Below are positions 5,736 through 45,624 of a stretch of 64,000 nucleotides of DNA, one piece after another (within the stretch, counting starts at the first letter, position 1; each line of letters begins with the position of its first letter). The DNA lies in the NCBI RefSeq assembly GCF_000311785.1, contig NZ_HE978538.1, forward strand, positions 86,223-150,222. The letters are read 5' to 3'. This stretch comes from Brevibacillus massiliensis. GTDB taxonomy: Bacteria > Bacillota > Bacilli > Brevibacillales > Brevibacillaceae. Position numbers and translations under genes: made by a program. The notes under the pieces were generated by a model. That model saw only the letters and a list, made by a program, of their open reading frames with translations, searched no databases and was not told the origin of the DNA.

Positions 5736-5780
5736 ACCTGATATACTTATCAAAAAGATGATAGACAGGGGTTGGATAAA

Positions 5781-6476
5781 TTGAAGCCGATTACCATTTT
5801 AATAGCCGATGACGAGGCGGAGATCGCGGAGCTGATCGCCCTTTATCTCCAAAAAGAGGGTTATCACACCGTAATCGCTTCTGACGGCAAGGACGCGATT
5901 CACGCTGTTCAAACCCATTCGATCGACTTGGCGATTCTCGATATCATGATGCCCAGGTTAGACGGCTACGAAGCAACCCGACAAATTCGCGAGCAGCATC
6001 ACATGCCGATCATCTTTTTGAGTGCCAAGGCTTCAGACATGGATAAGATCTCGGGACTGGTGATGGGGGCAGATGACTACATGACCAAACCGTTTAATCC
6101 AATGGAATTGGTTGCTCGCGTAAATGCTCAGCTGCGTCGCGCCATGCGGTTGAATCAGCCAACACCGGTAAACAACACGGTACTGGAGGCAGGCGGATTG
6201 GTCATTTCTCCAGATCAACGCACCGTCAGCCTGTATGGCAAACCGATTGAGCTCACGCCAAAAGAATTTGATATTTTGTATCTGCTGGCCCGCCACCCCA
6301 TAAAAGTCTACAGCGCCGAAAATATCTTCCAGTAGGTCTGGGGGGAAGCATACTACGAAAACAACAATACCGTCATGGTGCATATCCGAACCTTACGAAA
6401 AAAGCTTGGAGAAGATAAGAATAAACATAAATGGATCAAAACCGTATGGGGTGTGGGGTACTCGTTCAATGGCTAA
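5781..6476 (+). pseudogene. VanR/OmpR-type response regulator with in-frame amber stop
   Basis: Receiver domain with DDEAE (acidic pocket), phospho-acceptor Asp in LAILDIMMP and Lys in MTKPFNP, followed by an OmpR/PhoB winged helix. A TAG at 6333-6335 cuts the protein after ENIFQ. The frame beyond it is a perfect winged-helix end (VWGEAYYENNNTVMVHIRTL ... WGVGYSFNG), stopping at 6474-6476 and overlapping the kinase start. The paralogue at 44135-44824 reads EEIFQRVWKEKYY, so the amber replaces one residue, and a single base change (for example CAG to TAG) would explain it. TTG 5781 was chosen as start because AGGGG sits 9 nt upstream. Without suppression the product cannot bind DNA normally. 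A sequencing error is possible. Confidence 0.85.
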
Positions 6477-7608
6477 AATCATACGGAGCTTTCGGTTTAA
6501 AATGATCGTGTTATTAGGCGTCAGTATGCTCCTGTCCGGTGCGATCACCTATTTGCTCTACAAAGCTCTCCAGCTTTATTACCGTTCCAATGTTCGATAC
6601 GAGGATCCACTGCATGACGTCCGCGCATTCATCCGGAATATTGGCGATGTTAACGTTTTTTTGATTGTTTTTATCCCGCTTGCGATCTTGTTTTTCTTTC
6701 TTCTCACCAAGCGTTATGCGGATTATTTTAAGGAGATTTCCGCTGGAATCCATCAGCTTGCCAATGGCGACTTTACAAGCCGGGTTCAGATCTCATCCGA
6801 TGATGAGTTTGGAGATATTGCCAAAGACATTAATCTGGCAATCGTAAAATTGCAGCAAGCGATAGAAAGAGGAGATTTTGCAGAAAGCAGCAAAGACCAG
6901 CTCGTCTTGAATTTGGCTCATGATTTGCGCACCCCGTTGACTTCTGTAATAGGGTATCTGGACTTCATTCTGAATGACGATCACTTGACGAAAGAACAAG
7001 TCAGGCATTATACAACCATTGCTTTTACCAAGTCCCAGCGATTGGAAAAACTAATCGATGAGTTATTCGAAATAACGAGAATGAATTACGGTATGCTTTC
7101 CATTGAAAAAAAACCAATCGATCTGAGCGAACTGCTTAAACAAGTGAATGAAGAACTGTATCCTGCCTTTGAAAAAAACGAACTGACATCCAGATTGAAC
7201 GTGACTCCGCATATGCCGATCCGCGGCGATGGAGAACTGCTGGCACGCGTATTTGAACATCTCCTGACGAATGCCATCCGTTATGGAAATGACGGCCAGT
7301 TTGTCGATATTAACGGCTATCTTGACAGAGAAGATGTGGTGGTGCAGGTGATCAACTACGGAGATCAGATCCCGCCGGAGGTGCTGCCGTATATTTTTGA
7401 CATGTTTGTTACCGGGGACAAAGCGCGATCTCACCAAGGGGGAAGTACAGGTCTCGGCTTGTTTATTGCCAAAAATATTATAACGCAGCATAACGGAACG
7501 ATTACTGCCCAAAGCAGTACCGTTCGTACGATCTTTGAAGTGCGTTTGCCGCAAGAACACTTATCAGAAGAATCCGGTTGGAAACGCGAAACAAACCCGA
7601 TCATTTAA
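6469..7608 (+). CDS. VanS-like sensor histidine kinase
   Basis: 379-aa membrane sensor kinase. Two transmembrane segments (about residues 10-30 and 60-80) flank a short extracellular loop. A HAMP linker follows (ISAGIHQLANGDFTSRV), then the phospho-acceptor His in LAHDLRTPLTSVIGY, the N box (HLLTNAIRYG) and the G box (STGLGLFIAKNI). The short external loop and this arrangement match VanS-type kinases of D-Ser type glycopeptide clusters. ATG 6469 overlaps the end of the regulator gene by 8 nt, so the two are translationally coupled. The cognate regulator is interrupted, so signalling is either lost or redirected to the other VanR-like regulator in the window. Confidence 0.85.
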   Translation: MAKIIRSFRFKMIVLLGVSMLLSGAITYLLYKALQLYYRSNVRYEDPLHDVRAFIRNIGDVNVFLIVFIPLAILFFFLLTKRYADYFKEISAGIHQLANGDFTSRVQISSDDEFGDIAKDINLAIVKLQQAIERGDFAESSKDQLVLNLAHDLRTPLTSVIGYLDFILNDDHLTKEQVRHYTTIAFTKSQRLEKLIDELFEITRMNYGMLSIEKKPIDLSELLKQVNEELYPAFEKNELTSRLNVTPHMPIRGDGELLARVFEHLLTNAIRYGNDGQFVDINGYLDREDVVVQVINYGDQIPPEVLPYIFDMFVTGDKARSHQGGSTGLGLFIAKNIITQHNGTITAQSSTVRTIFEVRLPQEHLSEESGWKRETNPII

Positions 7609-7691
7609 GAAATATTTTATTTTTACCCCACTTTTTATTTAAACAGTTTTCTCTATCCTGAATGAGCAAAACATGAAGGAGGAAGCTGGGA

Positions 7692-8579
7692 ATGAAAAAG
7701 GGGGTTTTTTGGCTTATCATCCTATTACTTCTCGGTTGTAAAGCCTTTCAACAGATAGCAGGGGGCGTATATGGGTCTGCAGGCAACGAGCACAATCCAA
7801 CGCAAGGAGTGATTTCACCGGGGGCATACCAAACGATCGAAATAGCGAAGGATCAGGTATACCAGGGAAATCTGTTGCTGGTGAATAAAGAGTATCCGGT
7901 TCATAAAATGGGAGTAAAATCCGATGTGGTTCATCTGTATCAGAATGAGGAGCTGGTCAGGGGGTACGGTTTGCTCGACAGCTCCATTCAAGCGTCAGAG
8001 AGCGTAGCCAAAGCATTTTTGGAGATGGTTGGAGCCGCTCAAAAGGATAACGTGAGCCATTTTATGATCAACAGCGGTTATCGCAGCTTTGAAGAACAAA
8101 ATCAGCTTTATGAAGAAATGGGCCCGGAGCTGGCTATGCCGGGCGGTTACAGCGAACACAATCTGGGTTTAGCCCTTGATATCGGGTCTACCCAAATGAA
8201 AATGGAGCAAGCGCCTGAAGGAACATGGCTTGAAGAAAACGCTTGGAAATACGGATTTATTTTACGCTATCCGGAGGACAAAAGAGCGATCACAGGCACG
8301 GTATTTGAACCCTGGCATTACCGTTACGTAGGTATGCCGCACAGTGCGATTATTCAAGATCATCATTTTGCTTTGGAAGAGTATTTGGATTACGTGAGAG
8401 AAAATGAGCACTTGTCGGTTCAAGTCGATGGTGAAACATATGAAATCTCATATTACCCTGTTTCCCGCGATACTACGATCGATGTGCCAGTCAATCGCTA
8501 CTATACGATTTCGGGTGACAATATGGGTGGCATCATAGTGACTCTGTACCCCGAGAACGAGAAGCCGCAGCAGGAGTGA
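7692..8579 (+). CDS. vanY: VanY-like D,D-carboxypeptidase lipoprotein
   Basis: 295-aa zinc D,D-carboxypeptidase that removes the terminal D-Ala from peptidoglycan pentapeptide at the cell surface. A hydrophobic start ending in LLLLGC is a very short lipoprotein signal with Cys at residue 16. The M15B motifs are present: NSGYRSFEEQ, zinc ligands in SEHNLGLALDIG, and the last ligand in EPWHYRYVG. A C-terminal extension after the catalytic domain (YPVSRDTTIDVPVN ... ISGDNMGG) closely resembles the tail of VanXY at 40943. AAGGAGG lies 9 nt before the ATG. It lies 83 bp downstream of the sensor kinase, suggesting co-transcription. Function is inferred from motifs; no vanG-type ligase is adjacent. 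Confidence 0.88.
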   Translation: MKKGVFWLIILLLLGCKAFQQIAGGVYGSAGNEHNPTQGVISPGAYQTIEIAKDQVYQGNLLLVNKEYPVHKMGVKSDVVHLYQNEELVRGYGLLDSSIQASESVAKAFLEMVGAAQKDNVSHFMINSGYRSFEEQNQLYEEMGPELAMPGGYSEHNLGLALDIGSTQMKMEQAPEGTWLEENAWKYGFILRYPEDKRAITGTVFEPWHYRYVGMPHSAIIQDHHFALEEYLDYVRENEHLSVQVDGETYEISYYPVSRDTTIDVPVNRYYTISGDNMGGIIVTLYPENEKPQQE

Positions 8580-38808: not shown

Positions 38809-40962
38809 TTACTGATATACTCGTACCACCCGGTTTCCGATCCGGCTCAGGATTTCATTCGCAATGGTGCCGTTTTGCCCTGCAATCTGCGCTGCCGTAA
38901 TCGTCTCCTCTCCGTCTTGTCCGATCAGTGTCACCGTATCGCCCGCCCGGACTCCCTCGATATGCGTCACATCCACCATCAATTGATCCATGCAGATATT
39001 GCCGGCGATTGGCGCCCTTTGGCCACGGATCAGCACATATCCGCCTGTTTCCGATAAATCTCTGGGGATGCCGTCAGCATATCCAATAGAAACCGTTGCG
39101 ATCCTGCTGTCCGCCTTTGCGAGAAAACGGCGCGAATAGCCAACAGGGTCTTTGGCCTTGATGTCCCTGACGTGCGCCACCCTCGCTTTGAGGGAGAGGA
39201 CCGGACGCAAGTCAACCTGCCTCTTCACGCGATCCGTATCGGCTTCATTGCCAAGCAGTCCGTACAGCGCAATTCCCGGACGCGCCAGTTCGTACTCCAT
39301 ATCGGGATAATGCAAAATCCCATAGCTGCTTTGGACATGCAGCACACCGGGGTGAATTCCTTCGACCCTCAGGCGATCGATCACCTCGTTGAAGCGTTCG
39401 ATTTGCCGGTGCGTATATGCGACATCCGCCAATTCCAGGCTGTCTGATGCAGACAGATGGGTAAAGGTACCCGTCACCTGTACATTTTTGTGGCGGTACA
39501 TCGAGCAGATGCGCGCGAAGTTCTCGTGATTTTCCCCGAGTCTGCCCATTCCGGTGTCTATTTTCACGTGGGCTTTTATTTGTTTGCCGTACTTTTGCAA
39601 GGCCTCTGCATAATCGGCGCAAATCACCGTTTGCGTAAGCTTATAGCGTGTCAGGTCGCCAAACCGGCTCTCTGCTGTATACCCCAGGACCAGGATTTCC
39701 CCTTTTATCCCGTGCTTGCGCAGGGCAATCCCTTCAGCGACCTCTGCCACGGCAAAGTGCCTTACACCGGCTTTGTTGAGGCGTCTGGCCACTTGGACGC
39801 TTCCGTGCCCGTATGCATCGGCCTTGAGGACCGCCATGATCCCGCAGCCTGGACGTAGAACGCCTTGCAGCTGGGCTAGATTGTGTTCCAGATTGCTCAG
39901 ATTCACCTCGGCCCAAGCCCTGTACTTGCCATCTTTTTTTTTACGAAAACGGGTCAAGCGAACAACAGCGACAGACAGCACGATCGACAAGACAGTCACG
40001 GCGACATAATGAATCAGACTGTCCGCCACCAGGACATCTGTCAGACCGGTCGCCCTGCCCGCTGCCCGCACGAGCACGATCGACCAGGGATGCAAGAGGT
40101 AGATCCAGGTGCTTACCTGTCTGAGGTATCGGCCGCGGCTTCCCTCTCCCTGCGGCAAGAGCAGCAGTTGGCAGAGAAAGTAGACGGCGGGAATGAGAAA
40201 AACGTACATGCTGTCGTGCCGCGGGAGGTGAAGCGCGTGCAGCATCATCCCTTCGATGAACATCATGCCCAGTGACAGCGCAAAGCAGATGGCGCTGACG
40301 CCTGCGGGTATTTTTTGCTCAGACGCTCTTGCCGTCCACGCACCCAATGCAAGAAAGACGGGAGCGAAAAACAGTCCGTTTCTCGTGTAATCAAACAGAG
40401 TAAACATACTGGTATAGACGGAATGCAGGAGCGCGTTTTGTTCCGCTAGGCCAAAGTAACTGTCGCCTAATAGACCGATGAGATACAAGAACCCGGTCAC
40501 GGCAAGCAGGAGCGCCGATGGCATCCTTCCATAGAGGAAATAGGTGATGTACATTCCCAGAATCAACGCCGGGAGATACCAAAGATGATAGAAAGTGCCG
40601 TTAAAGACAAGATCTTTGAACAGGGAGGACAGGCTTGCATCTGCGAAATGCCCGGCATACCAATTCAACGGAAGGTATAGCGCGATGGAAAACAGGTAGA
40701 GCCACCCTATCCTGGAGGCAAAGCGGCGCAGCGCCTTCCTGTCCTGCCCGTGCTCTCCCGTCAGCTTTTGAAAGAAGAAAAAGCCGGAAACGAAAAAGAA
40801 AAACGGCACGGCCAGGCGCGCCAAAATGCCGGTCAAAAGAAAATCTGCATATTCGCTGTAGGATGTCAAGGGACCCGTATGAACGGCGATGACCAGCAAA
40901 GCTGCAATGATTTTAAAGCGGTCCAGTCCGATGTAGTTGTGCTTAGCGGCCACGATCTTCAC
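38809..40962 (-). CDS. vanT: VanT-type membrane-bound serine/alanine racemase
   Basis: 717 aa. The N-terminal acyltransferase-3-like half has about ten helices (FKIIAALLVIAVHTGPL; PFFFFVSGFFFF; FYHLWYLPALILGMYI) and is thought to take up L-serine. The C-terminal half is a PLP alanine-racemase fold with the catalytic Lys in MAVLKADAYGHG, the opposite catalytic Tyr region in DPVGYSRRF and GYADGIPRDLS. It converts L-Ser to D-Ser for D-Ala-D-Ser precursors. VanT of the vanG type is of very similar length and layout. GTG 40962 overlaps the end of vanXY by 20 nt; GTG 40953 is an alternative. The longer frame from 41130 lies inside vanXY and is rejected. Confidence 0.92.
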   Translation of the reverse strand: MKIVAAKHNYIGLDRFKIIAALLVIAVHTGPLTSYSEYADFLLTGILARLAVPFFFFVSGFFFFQKLTGEHGQDRKALRRFASRIGWLYLFSIALYLPLNWYAGHFADASLSSLFKDLVFNGTFYHLWYLPALILGMYITYFLYGRMPSALLLAVTGFLYLIGLLGDSYFGLAEQNALLHSVYTSMFTLFDYTRNGLFFAPVFLALGAWTARASEQKIPAGVSAICFALSLGMMFIEGMMLHALHLPRHDSMYVFLIPAVYFLCQLLLLPQGEGSRGRYLRQVSTWIYLLHPWSIVLVRAAGRATGLTDVLVADSLIHYVAVTVLSIVLSVAVVRLTRFRKKKDGKYRAWAEVNLSNLEHNLAQLQGVLRPGCGIMAVLKADAYGHGSVQVARRLNKAGVRHFAVAEVAEGIALRKHGIKGEILVLGYTAESRFGDLTRYKLTQTVICADYAEALQKYGKQIKAHVKIDTGMGRLGENHENFARICSMYRHKNVQVTGTFTHLSASDSLELADVAYTHRQIERFNEVIDRLRVEGIHPGVLHVQSSYGILHYPDMEYELARPGIALYGLLGNEADTDRVKRQVDLRPVLSLKARVAHVRDIKAKDPVGYSRRFLAKADSRIATVSIGYADGIPRDLSETGGYVLIRGQRAPIAGNICMDQLMVDVTHIEGVRAGDTVTLIGQDGEETITAAQIAGQNGTIANEILSRIGNRVVRVYQ

Positions 40963-41791
40963 TGCCTTTTGGGTGGAATGCTGTGACCACGAAGCCGTTC
41001 TGGTTGTTTCCGGACAGGTTGTTCCTGGCAGCGGGATTGACCGGGACCGCTGTCGTACCCTGCTCAGCCGGGACGTAGTAGATTTCAATGAGCGAGCGGT
41101 CCGTTTCCATAAACAGATGACCGCGATCAAAGGTGTACTGTTTTAAAAATTCGGTGTATTCCTCCAGGGAAAAGCCGCGCTGCTCGATGATGGCCGAGTG
41201 CGGATAGCCGACGTAGCGAAAATGCCACGGCTCGCAAGCGATGTGGGTGATGTGCTCCTTGTCTGCCTTATACCGTTGGATAAAGCCGTACTCGGCCGCA
41301 AGCTGTTTGAAGGTTTGGCAGACGCCGTAGTCGGGGAACGACGGGCAGATAAAATCCACGTCCCCGGCATTTTCTCCGACGTCAACGGCGAGGCCGGTCT
41401 GGTGCTCGCTTTCGCCGGGACGCGCCACATAGCTTGCCGTAAAAACGGCGCCGTTTTCCTGCAAAGAGGTTTCGTAGAGCTCTTCCTGTTCTTTTTTCGA
41501 ACGATAACCGCTGACGATCACGATGCGGTCCCTGGCACGGCACGCATGCAGCAATGCGCCCAGACGCTCCAGGCATGTCTTCTCGAGGGAGATTTCCGCA
41601 CCTGGCAGTTGAACAGCTTGCACGGCGCTTACCGGCAGCAGGTTTGGTCCTGTTCCGCTTTGTTTTACGGGATGTTGGCGGTTTACCAAAATCAAATGGC
41701 CTTCGTGAATCTTTGTCCGGTCCAGCCTAATCTGATCGTACTTGGCGGCAGGCGGTCTGCGGGGGATAAAGAGGTCTCTTATCTGCCCCAT
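40943..41791 (-). CDS. vanXY: VanXY-type D,D-dipeptidase/carboxypeptidase
   Basis: 282-aa cytoplasmic M15B zinc peptidase that destroys D-Ala-D-Ala and trims D-Ala from pentapeptide, so that only D-Ala-D-Ser precursors remain. Motifs: VSGYRSKKEQ, zinc ligands in SEHQTGLAVDVG, and the third ligand in EPWHFRYVG. There is no signal peptide. A tail of about 65 residues (YYVPAEQGTTAVPVN ... LSGNNQNG) is shared with the VanY lipoprotein at 7692-8579. The start overlaps vanG by 13 nt. Motifs alone do not separate VanY from VanXY; the call rests on cytosolic location and on its place between vanG and vanT. Confidence 0.88.
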   Translation of the reverse strand: MGQIRDLFIPRRPPAAKYDQIRLDRTKIHEGHLILVNRQHPVKQSGTGPNLLPVSAVQAVQLPGAEISLEKTCLERLGALLHACRARDRIVIVSGYRSKKEQEELYETSLQENGAVFTASYVARPGESEHQTGLAVDVGENAGDVDFICPSFPDYGVCQTFKQLAAEYGFIQRYKADKEHITHIACEPWHFRYVGYPHSAIIEQRGFSLEEYTEFLKQYTFDRGHLFMETDRSLIEIYYVPAEQGTTAVPVNPAARNNLSGNNQNGFVVTAFHPKGSEDRGR

Positions 41792-42849
41792 GCGATCTCA
41801 TCCTCCTCTGCGGCAAGCTGTATCAATCGGTCAAGTATCTCCTGGTAGGAAAGGTTGATCGAACGCAGCATATTCGGGTATCTGCTTTTGGATGTGAAGC
41901 CGGGCATCGTGTTTACCTCGTTAAACACAAGCTGTCCATCGCGGGTGAGGAACATGTCTACTCTGGCAAGCCCTTTGCAGCCCAGCGTTTTATAGATGAG
42001 CAGCGCCGTTTCCTTTACCTTGGCCGCTGTCACGGCTGCTATTCTGGCGGGCAGATGAATGGCCGCCGTTTCGAGTGAGTATTTTTCTTTGGTGTCAAAA
42101 AACTCGCTGGCGATTTCGATTTCATCCACTTCGCCGATGATCGGCTCGGCGTTGCCCAAAATCGCGCATCCTACTTCAAAGCCGTCGATGTTTTGTTCAA
42201 TGACGACCTTGTGGTCATGCATGCGCGCCAGCTTCACACCGTTGATCAGCTCCTGCTCGTTGTACGCCTTTGTAATCCCGAATGAAGAACCCGACCTGGC
42301 AGGTTTGATGTAAAGCGGATATCCGATCCTGCCCGCGGCAGCCACTGCTTTTTCGATTTTTTCGCCATTGGCCAAAGCGAATGATTCGGGTGTTGCAATT
42401 CCGGCTGCCCGCACCAGGGTATGGGCAATCTCCTTGTCCATGCAGATCGCAGAGGAGAGCGTGTCACAGCCGACAAACGGAATGCCCGAGAGCTCCAGAA
42501 GTCCCTGGATGGTTCCGTCTTCACCGTTCTTGCCGTGCAGGACCGGGAATACCACATCGATTTTTGTCAGGTGAAACTCACTGTCTGCCAATTCGACGAG
42601 CCCTCTCATCTCCCGGGATGGCGAGATAAAGGCGGGCGAGCAGCTGGGATGCGCATGCCAGACATCATTTCGTATGTCATCTACGCTGCCGCTGTACCTG
42701 AGCCACAGCCCGTCACGGGTAATTCCTACCATAATGATGTTGTACTGATCTCGATCCAGATGATCGAGAACCGCGGCGGCAGAGCTTAATGATATCTCGT
42801 ATTCGTTGGAACAGCCGCCAAACAATACGGCAATATTTTTCTTGTCCAT
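41779..42849 (-). CDS. vanG: VanG-type D-Ala-D-Ser ligase
   Basis: 356-aa ATP-grasp ligase. The N-terminus is MDKKNIAVLFGGCSNEYEIS, followed by VFPVLHGKNGEDGTIQG, IKPARSGSSFGITKA (ATP lysine and Ser loop), then the omega-loop FDTKEKYSLET, and the C-terminal Mg site VFNEVNTMPGFTSKSRYPNM. The EKY in the omega-loop is typical of D-Ala/D-Ser ligases, while D-lactate ligases (VanA/B) differ there. With vanXY and vanT downstream, D-Ser is the logical second substrate. ATG 42849 has AGGAGG 8 nt upstream. A 190-bp leader with a regulated-type promoter precedes it. A housekeeping Ddl is the alternative, but the context argues against that. Confidence 0.92.
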   Translation of the reverse strand: MDKKNIAVLFGGCSNEYEISLSSAAAVLDHLDRDQYNIIMVGITRDGLWLRYSGSVDDIRNDVWHAHPSCSPAFISPSREMRGLVELADSEFHLTKIDVVFPVLHGKNGEDGTIQGLLELSGIPFVGCDTLSSAICMDKEIAHTLVRAAGIATPESFALANGEKIEKAVAAAGRIGYPLYIKPARSGSSFGITKAYNEQELINGVKLARMHDHKVVIEQNIDGFEVGCAILGNAEPIIGEVDEIEIASEFFDTKEKYSLETAAIHLPARIAAVTAAKVKETALLIYKTLGCKGLARVDMFLTRDGQLVFNEVNTMPGFTSKSRYPNMLRSINLSYQEILDRLIQLAAEEDEIAWGR

Positions 42850-42877
42850 AAGGTAAGCCTCCTGTATCCATTCCTGC

Positions 42878-42913
42878 CATCGCAGCTTTGCTCGCGCCCT
42901 CGCTTTGCGATGA
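42878..42913 (-). promoter_or_regulatory. Hairpin in the vanG leader
   Basis: CATCGCA and TGCGATG form a perfect 7-bp stem with a loop of about 22 nt, 30 bp before the vanG start. It could affect translation or mRNA stability; no T-run follows. Confidence 0.35.
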
Positions 42914-42942
42914 CTCAATCTGTTCCCTACTTTACAGACTCG

Positions 42943-42971
42943 TCTATAAATTTTTTGAAAGGAAAGTTAAA
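42943..42971 (-). promoter_or_regulatory. Candidate VanR-dependent promoter of vanG-vanXY-vanT
   Basis: On the minus strand TTTAAC, a 17-nt spacer and TATAGA. The weak -35 box overlaps an inverted repeat TTAAAGAATTTCTTAA (42967-42982), a place where an OmpR-type activator could bind. The preceding vanS terminator makes a separate promoter necessary. Confidence 0.5.
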
Positions 42972-43001
42972 GAATTTCTTAAGGATCCCTAAAAAATGAA
43001 A

Positions 43002-43021
43002 AACCCGGCTTTCGCCGAGTT
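43002..43021 (-). terminator. Terminator of vanRS
   Basis: Minus-strand AACTCGGC-GAAA-GCCGGGTT followed by TTTTC. A GNRA-type tetraloop and perfect stem (one wobble) make this convincing. Confidence 0.85.
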
Positions 43022-43038
43022 CTCTGCGGATTCGATAT

Positions 43039-44142
43039 TCAGGGGACTTCCGAAAGGTTGACGGGAAGCTTTACCCGAAAGACCGTTTTGGCTGTGCTGC
43101 TGGAGACTGTGATCGACCCTTGGTGCAATTCGATCATGCTTTTGGCGATGGCCAACCCTAATCCCGTACCGCCTGTTTCTTCTGAACGGGATTTCTCCAC
43201 CCGATAGAATCGCTCGAAAAGATGCGGCAGATCAGTCGCGGGTATGGGATCGCCGTAATTGACGACATCGATGACGACCATGTCGTTCTCGCGCGATACC
43301 GCAATCTCCACTCTTTTTCCCTCCCGGCCGTACTTAATCGCATTGGCAATCAGGTTCTCAAAGACGCGCATCAGCTTGTCCCCGTCAGCCGTAATCATGA
43401 CCTTCTCCTCGCAGAAAGCCAACTGAATCTCCATCTGACTGTCGCGCAGCTGCAGCGAATATTCCGCGGCCAGCTGCCCAAGCAGTTCGACCAGATTGAT
43501 CGGGGAAAGCTCCAGACGCACCTGTCCGTAGCTTACCCTGGTATATTCAAACAAGTCTTCTACCAGCCGGTACAAGCGGCGGGTCTTTTCATAGGCGATG
43601 TTTACGTAGTAGCGCAGCTCCACTTCGTCCCGGTAACGGTCCTCCTCGATCAGCCGCAGGTAGCCAATCATGGAAGTGAGTGGCGTGCGCAGATCGTGGG
43701 ACACATTGGTGATCAATTCATTTTTGGCTTGGACGGCGAGGCGCTCTTCGGCGATGGATGATTGCAGCCGGCGGGCCATCCAGTTGATGTTCTCCGCCAG
43801 ATTGCCCAATTCGTCATTGGACTTAACCGGAATCTGCAGGTCGAAGTTGCCGTGTGACAGCTGCTGAACGCCTCTTGTTATCTCCACCAGGTACTTGACG
43901 GTACCGCGGCTTAACAAGACGACGTAAAAGACGAAAAACACAATCCCGGTCAAGGCAAATACGACCGGTGCGCCAACCCAGGCATCCAGGAGCTGGAGAA
44001 GGGAACTGAAAGGCTGAATGTGCCTGGTTACTGTAAAGATCGCGAAAACATAGAGCACAACGACCGTAAACATGGACAGCACCATGCTTAAGAAAAACAA
44101 AGCGATGATTTTCCAGCGGATTCCTGACAACGGACTACGCAT
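43039..44142 (-). CDS. vanS: VanS-type sensor histidine kinase
   Basis: 367 aa. Two transmembrane helices flank an extracellular loop of about 35 residues, then a HAMP (EITRGVQQLSHGNFDLQI), phospho-acceptor His in VSHDLRTPLTSMIGYLRL, N box LIANAIKYGREG and G boxes VNYGDPIPATDLPHLF and GTGLGLAIAKSM. The arrangement matches VanS of the D-Ser type clusters, with a small sensor loop. It overlaps the end of vanR by 8 nt. It would phosphorylate VanR in the presence of a glycopeptide or wall stress. Confidence 0.88.
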   Translation of the reverse strand: MRSPLSGIRWKIIALFFLSMVLSMFTVVVLYVFAIFTVTRHIQPFSSLLQLLDAWVGAPVVFALTGIVFFVFYVVLLSRGTVKYLVEITRGVQQLSHGNFDLQIPVKSNDELGNLAENINWMARRLQSSIAEERLAVQAKNELITNVSHDLRTPLTSMIGYLRLIEEDRYRDEVELRYYVNIAYEKTRRLYRLVEDLFEYTRVSYGQVRLELSPINLVELLGQLAAEYSLQLRDSQMEIQLAFCEEKVMITADGDKLMRVFENLIANAIKYGREGKRVEIAVSRENDMVVIDVVNYGDPIPATDLPHLFERFYRVEKSRSEETGGTGLGLAIAKSMIELHQGSITVSSSTAKTVFRVKLPVNLSEVP

Positions 44143-44824
44143 CTATTTTGTACCCTACTCCCCAAATGGTTTGAATCAGTTTGTATCCGAGCTGTTTCTC
44201 CAGTTTGTCGCGCAGATTGCTGATATGGACCATGACGGTATTGTTGGAGGCGTAGTATTTCTCCTTCCAGACCCGCTGGAAGATTTCCTCTGCGGCAAAG
44301 ACTCTTCCCGGGTTGCTGGCCAGCAGGTAAAGGATGTCGAATTCCCTTGACGTCAGCACAACAGGTGAATCGTTCACCGTAACTGAATGAGCGGTCCGGT
44401 TGATCGCCACATCGTGAATCTTTAATATCTCATCTGTCTGCCCGTTGGCATCGTGGTTGTACAAAAAGCTGCGGCGCAGCAGCGATTTGACCCGGGCGAT
44501 CAGCTCCAGCGGGTTGAACGGTTTGATCATGTAATCATCGGCGCCCGTCATCAAACCGAGAATCTTGTCCATATCCTCTGTTTTGGCGCTCAGCATCAAA
44601 ATGGGCAGGGTCTTGGTTTCCCGCACTTTGCGGCACACTTCGATCCCGTCCACCTCCGGCATCATCACATCGAGTATGAGCAGATCCACCGCTTCCGCTT
44701 CCAACAGCTCCAGTGCCGCCCGCCCGTTATGCGCATGGAGAACGTGAAAGCCTTCATTGGTCAAATACAAGGAAATCAATTGGGCGATTTCCCTGTCGTC
44801 ATCGACAACGAGAATGTTGCGCAT
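44135..44824 (-). CDS. vanR: VanR-type response regulator
   Basis: 229-aa OmpR/PhoB-type activator. Acidic pocket DDDREIAQL, phospho-Asp in LLILDVMMPEVDG, Lys in MIKPFNPLELIARV, winged helix LTSREFDILYLLASNPGRVF and NTVMVHISNLRDKLE ... WGVGYKIDA. It is very close in layout to the amber-interrupted regulator at 5781-6476. GGGTGATGG precedes the ATG. It probably activates the vanG promoter at 42943-42971. Confidence 0.9.
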   Translation of the reverse strand: MRNILVVDDDREIAQLISLYLTNEGFHVLHAHNGRAALELLEAEAVDLLILDVMMPEVDGIEVCRKVRETKTLPILMLSAKTEDMDKILGLMTGADDYMIKPFNPLELIARVKSLLRRSFLYNHDANGQTDEILKIHDVAINRTAHSVTVNDSPVVLTSREFDILYLLASNPGRVFAAEEIFQRVWKEKYYASNNTVMVHISNLRDKLEKQLGYKLIQTIWGVGYKIDA

Positions 44825-45004: not shown

Positions 45005-45624
45005 ATGCAGCGAAAGAATCAGGTCATCATGCCATTGATTGCAGCGCTTACGGCGCTTTTTTCGCCGCTCGGCGGCTGCCCCCGGGCTGGACAAGGACCT
45101 GGAAAACACCCGCTGGTCGTAATGGAAGAAACCAAACAGCAGATGGTCAGGACCAGAGCACCGATCCATCAGTTTTTTTACTCGGAGTCCTTAGCCGGTC
45201 CAGACTTTAAAGAGATCGTCGCTCCCAACAGCAATACCTTGTATGTTTCCGCATGGCTCGACCTCGCTTCCGGTCCGGTGATTCTTCGTGTTCCGGAGAA
45301 TAAAGCGGCCGGTACTATACGGTTCAAATGCTTGACGCCTATACGAATACGTTTCGAAACGTCTCCAGTCGATCGACAGGGGGCAAGCCGGGTCAGTACG
45401 CGATCGTCGGCCCGACCTGGAAGGGGAAGGCAGCGGAAGAAAAAATCCAGGCTCCGACCAACACCGTTTGGCTGATAGGGCGGGTGGAGGTGAAGGGCAA
45501 GGAATCCAACTGGCTTCCCTCGCCGCCAGGGGATTTTAACCTGGTCCTGAGGATGTTCGAACCCAAACCCAGGATGCTGGAAAAAGGGTACAAGCTTCCG
45601 CCTGTCAAGCGGATATCCGGGTGA
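45005..45624 (+). pseudogene. Frameshifted DUF1254-domain protein
   Basis: Frame 1 (from ATG 45005) encodes a hydrophobic start, then VVMEETKQQMVRTRAPIHQF and VAPNSNTLYVSAWLDLASGP, all typical of DUF1254. At about 45308-45315 the frame must change: the next family stretch, RYYTVQMLDAYTNTFRNVS then VGPTWKG and NTVWLIGRV, is in another frame and runs to KRISG and a stop at 45624. One indel therefore splits the gene. Family members often continue with DUF1214 and are about twice as long, so the C-terminus also appears missing. Function of the family is unknown. The upstream 180 bp to vanR contain no other feature. Confidence 0.8.

Follow-up and report, generated by a model that had tools for sequence, protein, structure and literature searches.

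The vanR-vanS-vanG-vanXY-vanT cluster at positions 38809-44824 of a 64,000-nucleotide stretch of Brevibacillus massiliensis DNA (contig NZ_HE978538.1; the whole stretch analysed is called the window) raises the question of what kind of glycopeptide-response system it encodes, what controls it and from where it was assembled. The genome is a 5.06-Mb draft in 37 contigs. The reading that we favour, with a probability of roughly 0.7, is that of a single vanG-type regulon for the glycopeptide response, chromosomal and divided between two loci, this cluster and a distant vanR2-vanS2-vanY2 module, and run by the intact response regulator VanR1 of the cluster.

A vanG-type cluster with intact effector genes

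By its sequence, the cluster is vanG-type (D-Ala-D-Ser) and lacks vanU and vanW. All of its genes lie on the minus strand. The first, vanR (44135-44824), encodes VanR1, an intact OmpR-type response regulator of 229 residues whose recognition helix (NNTVMVHI) resembles that of other VanR proteins, and vanS (43039-44142) encodes VanS1, a 367-residue membrane histidine kinase with HAMP, HisKA and HATPase domains and two transmembrane segments that, as read by eye, are separated by a short outside loop. A predicted intrinsic terminator follows vanS (42999-43024, minus strand), consisting of a hairpin with 11 stem pairs (five of them G-C) and a T-rich tail. The three effector genes come next: vanG (41779-42849), vanXY (40943-41791), which encodes a cytoplasmic Zn D,D-dipeptidase/carboxypeptidase of 282 residues without a signal peptide (PF02557), and vanT (38809-40956, start codon GTG at 40956), whose 715-residue product joins an acyltransferase-3-type membrane half to a pyridoxal phosphate-dependent serine racemase half (PF01757, PF01168 and PF00842). 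Neighbouring effector genes overlap by 13-14 bp, and the Pfam domains of the cluster proteins are complete. The VanG alignment to the solved VanG chain 4fu0 covers 348 residues; the VanXY motifs SEHQTGLAVD (SxHxxGxAxD) and EPWH line up with those of VanXY-G (4f78) and VanXY-C (4mur), VanT can be aligned to the solved VanT-G chain 4ecl, and the catalytic motifs of all three enzymes are intact in these alignments. Thus, the gene order, intact motifs and overlaps described in an earlier note on this DNA agree with the positions of the open reading frames (ORFs), the alignments and the hairpin at 43024-42999. The absence of vanW that the same note reported extends to the whole genome, in which a PF04294 profile search gave no match; no vanU-like ORF lies upstream of vanR in the ORF list of the window.

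Evidence for the D-Ala-D-Ser assignment comes from profile scores, specificity positions and trees. VanG scores 559.6 bits on NF000091 (cut-off 495), which outscores every other ligase model, and the racemase half of VanT scores 567.5 bits on the NCBIfam vanT-G C-terminal model (cut-off 460). The top NCBIfam matches of VanXY, VanS and VanR are also van models, all below their curated cut-offs (238.7/500, 289/400 and 293/350 bits, respectively), so that these three proteins are divergent. In an alignment of 69 ligases, the equivalent of VanG Asp243 is Asp in 60 of 60 VanG-like proteins and Gly in 6/6 housekeeping Ddl, and that of Phe252 is Phe in 59 of the 60 and Tyr in all six Ddl, with the window protein carrying Asp and Phe; in the 2012 VanG structure paper, these positions are reported to contact D-Ser. 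VanA and VanB also have Asp and Phe there, and the loop that follows differs. For VanT, alignment to 4ecl places Asn700 at the position of Tyr354 of alanine racemase (Alr), where the genome's own Alr has Tyr; according to the Alr and VanT literature, Asn at this position favours serine. In a ligase tree, the window VanG stands apart from six Ddl and from VanA/VanB, rather than grouping with the housekeeping ligases. As no VanC, VanE, VanL or VanN sequence exceeded its cut-off in a class sample, the comparison with these types is by profile score only. A separate housekeeping ddl, whose existence the earlier note had left to be checked, was found at G000:C2:179004-180050, and a separate alr lies on G000:C25. 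The cut-offs, specificity positions and separation from Ddl together support a chromosomal vanG-type D-Ala-D-Ser cluster in this Bacilli genome.

A second locus and a shared putative operator

The second locus lies on the plus strand. Its vanR2 (5772-6335, in a gene region that extends to 6477) encodes a second VanR and stops early, at an in-frame TAG (6333-6335) that precedes the codons of the DNA-recognition helix; relatives of vanR2 are intact, as are vanS2 and vanY2 downstream, and the stop may be a sequencing error in the draft. The kinase gene vanS2 (ORF limits 6406-7608, true start probably near 6470) is intact and its product scores 374.8 bits on NF033091. The product of vanY2 (7692-8579) is a 295-residue lipoprotein-type D,D-carboxypeptidase of the VanY-A/F/M type (NF000472, 395.8 bits, cut-off 425), in which a lipobox LLGC can be read directly. 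The earlier note had placed a vanY 31 kb away, which is this gene, 30 kb from the cluster, but had missed its vanS2, its truncated vanR2 and the putative operator that it shares with vanG.

A putative VanR operator, TTAAGAAATATTTTA, lies upstream of vanY2 (7605-7619, plus strand), and its counterpart TTAAGAAATTCTTTA lies upstream of vanG (42968-42982, minus strand). Across all 5.06 Mb of the genome, TTAAGAAANNNTTTA is found at these two sites and nowhere else, and its reverse, used as a control, has no match; when at most one mismatch is tolerated, TTAAGAAATNNTTTA likewise gives two sites in the window, at 7605-7619 and 42968-42982, against a mean of 0.10 in shuffled sequences, none of which contained two. 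As the TTAAGAAANNNTTTA pattern was picked after both promoters had been seen, a 15-base matrix trained on promoters of other genomes only carries particular weight: it ranks the vanY2 site first and the vanG site second in the 64 kb, at 19.4 and 18.0 bits, whereas the best score in five shuffles was 14.7. Many relatives have the box in front of vanY or vanG, vanG sets that lack adjacent vanRS included, and in the Brevibacillaceae genome G032 it separates dacA from a VanRS1-type pair. The recognition helices of VanR1 and of the VanR2 family are nearly identical, and the footprinted VanRG consensus, (T/C)CGTANGAAA(T/A)T (PMC4405338), agrees with the vanG box in 11 of its 12 positions.

Proposed mechanism

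From gene content, intact reading frames, specificity positions, trees, the operator pair and the vanR2 stop, the activities of the enzymes, induction by glycopeptides, cross-control of vanY2 and resistance can be predicted as follows. VanS1 would sense a glycopeptide or wall stress and phosphorylate VanR1, which would act at the TTAAGAAANNNTTTA box upstream of vanG to switch on vanG-vanXY-vanT. VanT would take up L-Ser and racemise it to D-Ser, VanG would ligate D-Ala to D-Ser and VanXY would destroy D-Ala-D-Ala, and as a result of these three actions precursors would carry a D-Ala-D-Ser end with low affinity for vancomycin. For the vanG system of E. faecalis, this scheme of making and incorporating D-Ser while removing D-Ala-D-Ala is established (PMC4405338). 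Because vanY2 has the same box upstream and its native partner vanR2 is truncated, VanR1 probably also drives vanY2, the product of which would trim leftover D-Ala ends.

Comparison with known systems and origin

The order of ligase, bifunctional peptidase and membrane serine racemase is that of the vanG operon of Enterococcus faecalis BM4518 (vanURS-vanYWGXYT), as are the upstream vanRS on the same strand and a VanR-type operator ahead of the resistance genes (PMC4405338). In contrast to that operon, there is no vanU or vanW here, vanY lies at the second locus and is of the VanY-A/F/M rather than the VanY-B/G type, the window VanG is at most 55-60% identical to the reference kind and VanXY falls far below the cut-off of the VanXY-G model. 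Resistance in E. faecalis does not depend on vanU, vanW or the adjacent vanY (PMC4405338). Separate placement has a parallel in Paenibacillus thiaminolyticus and P. dendritiformis, where vanRSY and vanG-X-T occupy different places in one genome (PMC11273654); there, however, vanGXT is without vanRS, whereas in the window an intact vanRS accompanies it and the vanRSY module is the one that has lost its regulator.

The nearest relatives of the effectors are found in clusters of Paenibacillaceae, namely P. glacialis DSM 22343 (L045/L131), P. faecalis Marseille-P3787 (L046) and genomes G699 and G663 (L158/L159). The latter two share the vanR-vanS-vanG-vanXY-vanT order and the same VanS group; the Paenibacillaceae clusters differ from the window's in that adjacent vanRS are mostly absent, several have a short or split VanT and they are 60-75% apart in sequence. 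VanG exceeds the cut-off in 17 of the 39 Brevibacillaceae genomes sampled (which are also all the genomes of the order in the sample, the genus being represented by this genome only), and a close VanG occurs in 58 of the 396 genomes in the family to which G186 belongs, taken here as Paenibacillaceae because P. glacialis and P. faecalis are among its members. The core vanG-XY-T without vanU or vanW is the usual form in that family, so that their lack is not unusual here. Supports in the quick trees used here are Shimodaira-Hasegawa-like approximate likelihood ratio values. The window VanG falls in a group with a support of 100 that comprises 39 Paenibacillaceae sequences and the Brevibacillaceae genome G020, outside a 12-member Brevibacillaceae clade; constraining it to that clade costs 35.9 log-likelihood units and is rejected by the approximately unbiased (AU) test (P = 0.015). 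VanXY (93) and VanT (97) also group with Paenibacillaceae, and both VanG and VanXY are thus placed elsewhere than in the Brevibacillaceae clade. As the best identities are just 75% for VanG and 66% for VanXY (both P. glacialis) and 63% for VanT (P. glacialis and G477), any transfer would be old.

The two remaining parts have other relatives. VanR1 groups with VanR of the Brevibacillaceae genomes G032 and G009 (support 99); these nearest VanRS1 relatives within the family, 56-57% (VanR) and 45-48% (VanS) identical, stand beside DacA-type carboxypeptidase genes, the pair preceding dacA in G032 (L169) and G009 (L170) with no vanG nearby, and in G009 vanRS is followed also by a gene that we read as VanZ-like. 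The vanR2-vanS2-vanY2 module is, on its protein relationships, native to Brevibacillaceae: VanY2 lies in a clade with Brevibacillaceae VanY (support 100), and the closest relatives of VanR2, VanS2 and VanY2 (86, 81 and 74%) are in G027, which has the family's native cluster, vanY-vanG-vanXY-vanT-(vanR)-vanS (for example L066), although the window VanG, VanXY and VanT are on another branch and lie elsewhere in the genome. By descent, the whole is therefore a mosaic of Paenibacillaceae-type effectors, a VanRS pair with dacA-adjacent relatives and a Brevibacillaceae-native vanRSY module, and the trees make the cluster look like a composite that came, at no recent date, from a source resembling Paenibacillaceae. 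We also considered, and dropped, the idea that the second locus must be what a deletion left of a native vanG operon: stand-alone vanR2-vanS2-vanY2 modules exist in G032 (without vanG) and G027 (beside a separate vanG set), so that no such loss has to be assumed.

Weighing of the alternatives

The earlier note regarded the cluster as resident and possibly ancestral. Such vertical descent, in which this lineage would have kept an old paralogue of the Brevibacillaceae vanG set, draws on the chromosomal location, on a base composition like that of the neighbouring genes, on the long branches to the nearest Paenibacillaceae (best 75%), which make any transfer old, and on the absence of mobile-element genes among the immediate neighbours, as that note had observed. 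The VanG and VanXY trees do not favour it: VanG, VanXY and VanT all fall among Paenibacillaceae proteins, the Brevibacillaceae placement of VanG is rejected, and G020 is the sole other Brevibacillaceae genome in the VanG and VanXY groups, so that we consider continuous residence unlikely. Movement between replicons does occur in this group, since a rearranged racemase-vanXY-vanG set is carried by the 375-kb P. amylolyticus plasmid pY5S7-1 (L179), near TrbC/PrgI-type genes. No clean empty site beside HelD/MscL was found in Brevibacillaceae, in which HelD is present in 38 of 39 genomes with varying neighbours and G037 keeps only the HelD-MATE neighbourhood. A different doubt concerns the second locus, which may be independent, the shared box reflecting common descent of VanR targets without cross-control by VanR1. 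The stand-alone modules of G032 and G027 and the distant relationship of VanR1 to VanR2 fit such independence, but VanR2 as read is truncated before its recognition helix and so cannot act at the box, the helices of the two families are nearly identical and the VanRS1-type pair of G032 adjoins a target with the same box; we hold independence to be the less probable state.

The genes might also be real and yet confer little or no vancomycin resistance, being cryptic or having another task in the wall, for example in the tolerance of other compounds that bind lipid II. A parallel is offered by the vanG-like operon of Clostridioides difficile (PMC4405338), although all genes strictly required for resistance in E. 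faecalis (vanG, vanXY and vanT; PMC4405338) are intact here and are accompanied by a dedicated intact VanRS and an operator; a weak or absent phenotype strikes us as a serious, if minority, prospect. Several further points weigh against the two-locus regulon. P. thiaminolyticus NNS5-6, with vanG, vanXY and vanT, tested glycopeptide-susceptible (PMC11428215), which also speaks for the cryptic reading. VanS, VanR, VanXY and VanY2 all score under curated cut-offs. The window has 7 one-mismatch VanRG sites where 4.45 are expected, which is no enrichment, and that VanR1 binds the two boxes is a prediction. Finally, the Brevibacillaceae-clade alternative for VanT is not rejected (AU P = 0.35), a point that also counts for residence. 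On balance we retain the single regulon run by VanR1. A more specific history, in which an acquired vanRS-vanG-vanXY-vanT cluster captured the native vanY through the shared operator after inactivation of the native vanR, giving one regulon with two loci and two operators, is put forward tentatively, with odds a little short of even.

Related gene sets and neighbouring genes

Variation among the relatives was observed at several points. In G020, the second Brevibacillaceae genome with a Paenibacillaceae-type vanG-XY-T, the set (L065) has no adjacent vanRS and has an operator-like box upstream of vanG. In Paenibacillaceae, L140-L143 and L154 have the order racemase-vanXY-vanG and a racemase with Gln for Asn at the specificity position, and in L142 and L143 a VanT membrane half without racemase comes after vanG; many others (L144-L153 and more) have vanG-vanXY followed by a VanT of ∼370-480 residues that is a racemase half with little or no membrane half. 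In a further Brevibacillaceae genome, G003, vanRS and a vanY accompany a VanA/B-like ligase of the D-Lac type (L067). Beside the cluster itself, the DUF1254 gene between vanR and helD (45005-45624, plus strand) looks broken, with a partial Pfam domain match in the ORF 45005-45475 and the remainder seemingly in another frame from 45328.

Implications

As like clusters are already known, the cluster itself is of a known kind; for the two-operator, two-locus layout with a truncated native regulator, we found no published description. The vanG type of resistance is present in human pathogens and gut bacteria. Its vanG-XY-T core is frequent among environmental Bacilli, where regulators have been exchanged, and the reservoir and the history of its mosaic assembly are therefore open to direct study. 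Within that history, the operator pair would provide a simple test case for the way in which a new VanRS gains control of older wall genes.

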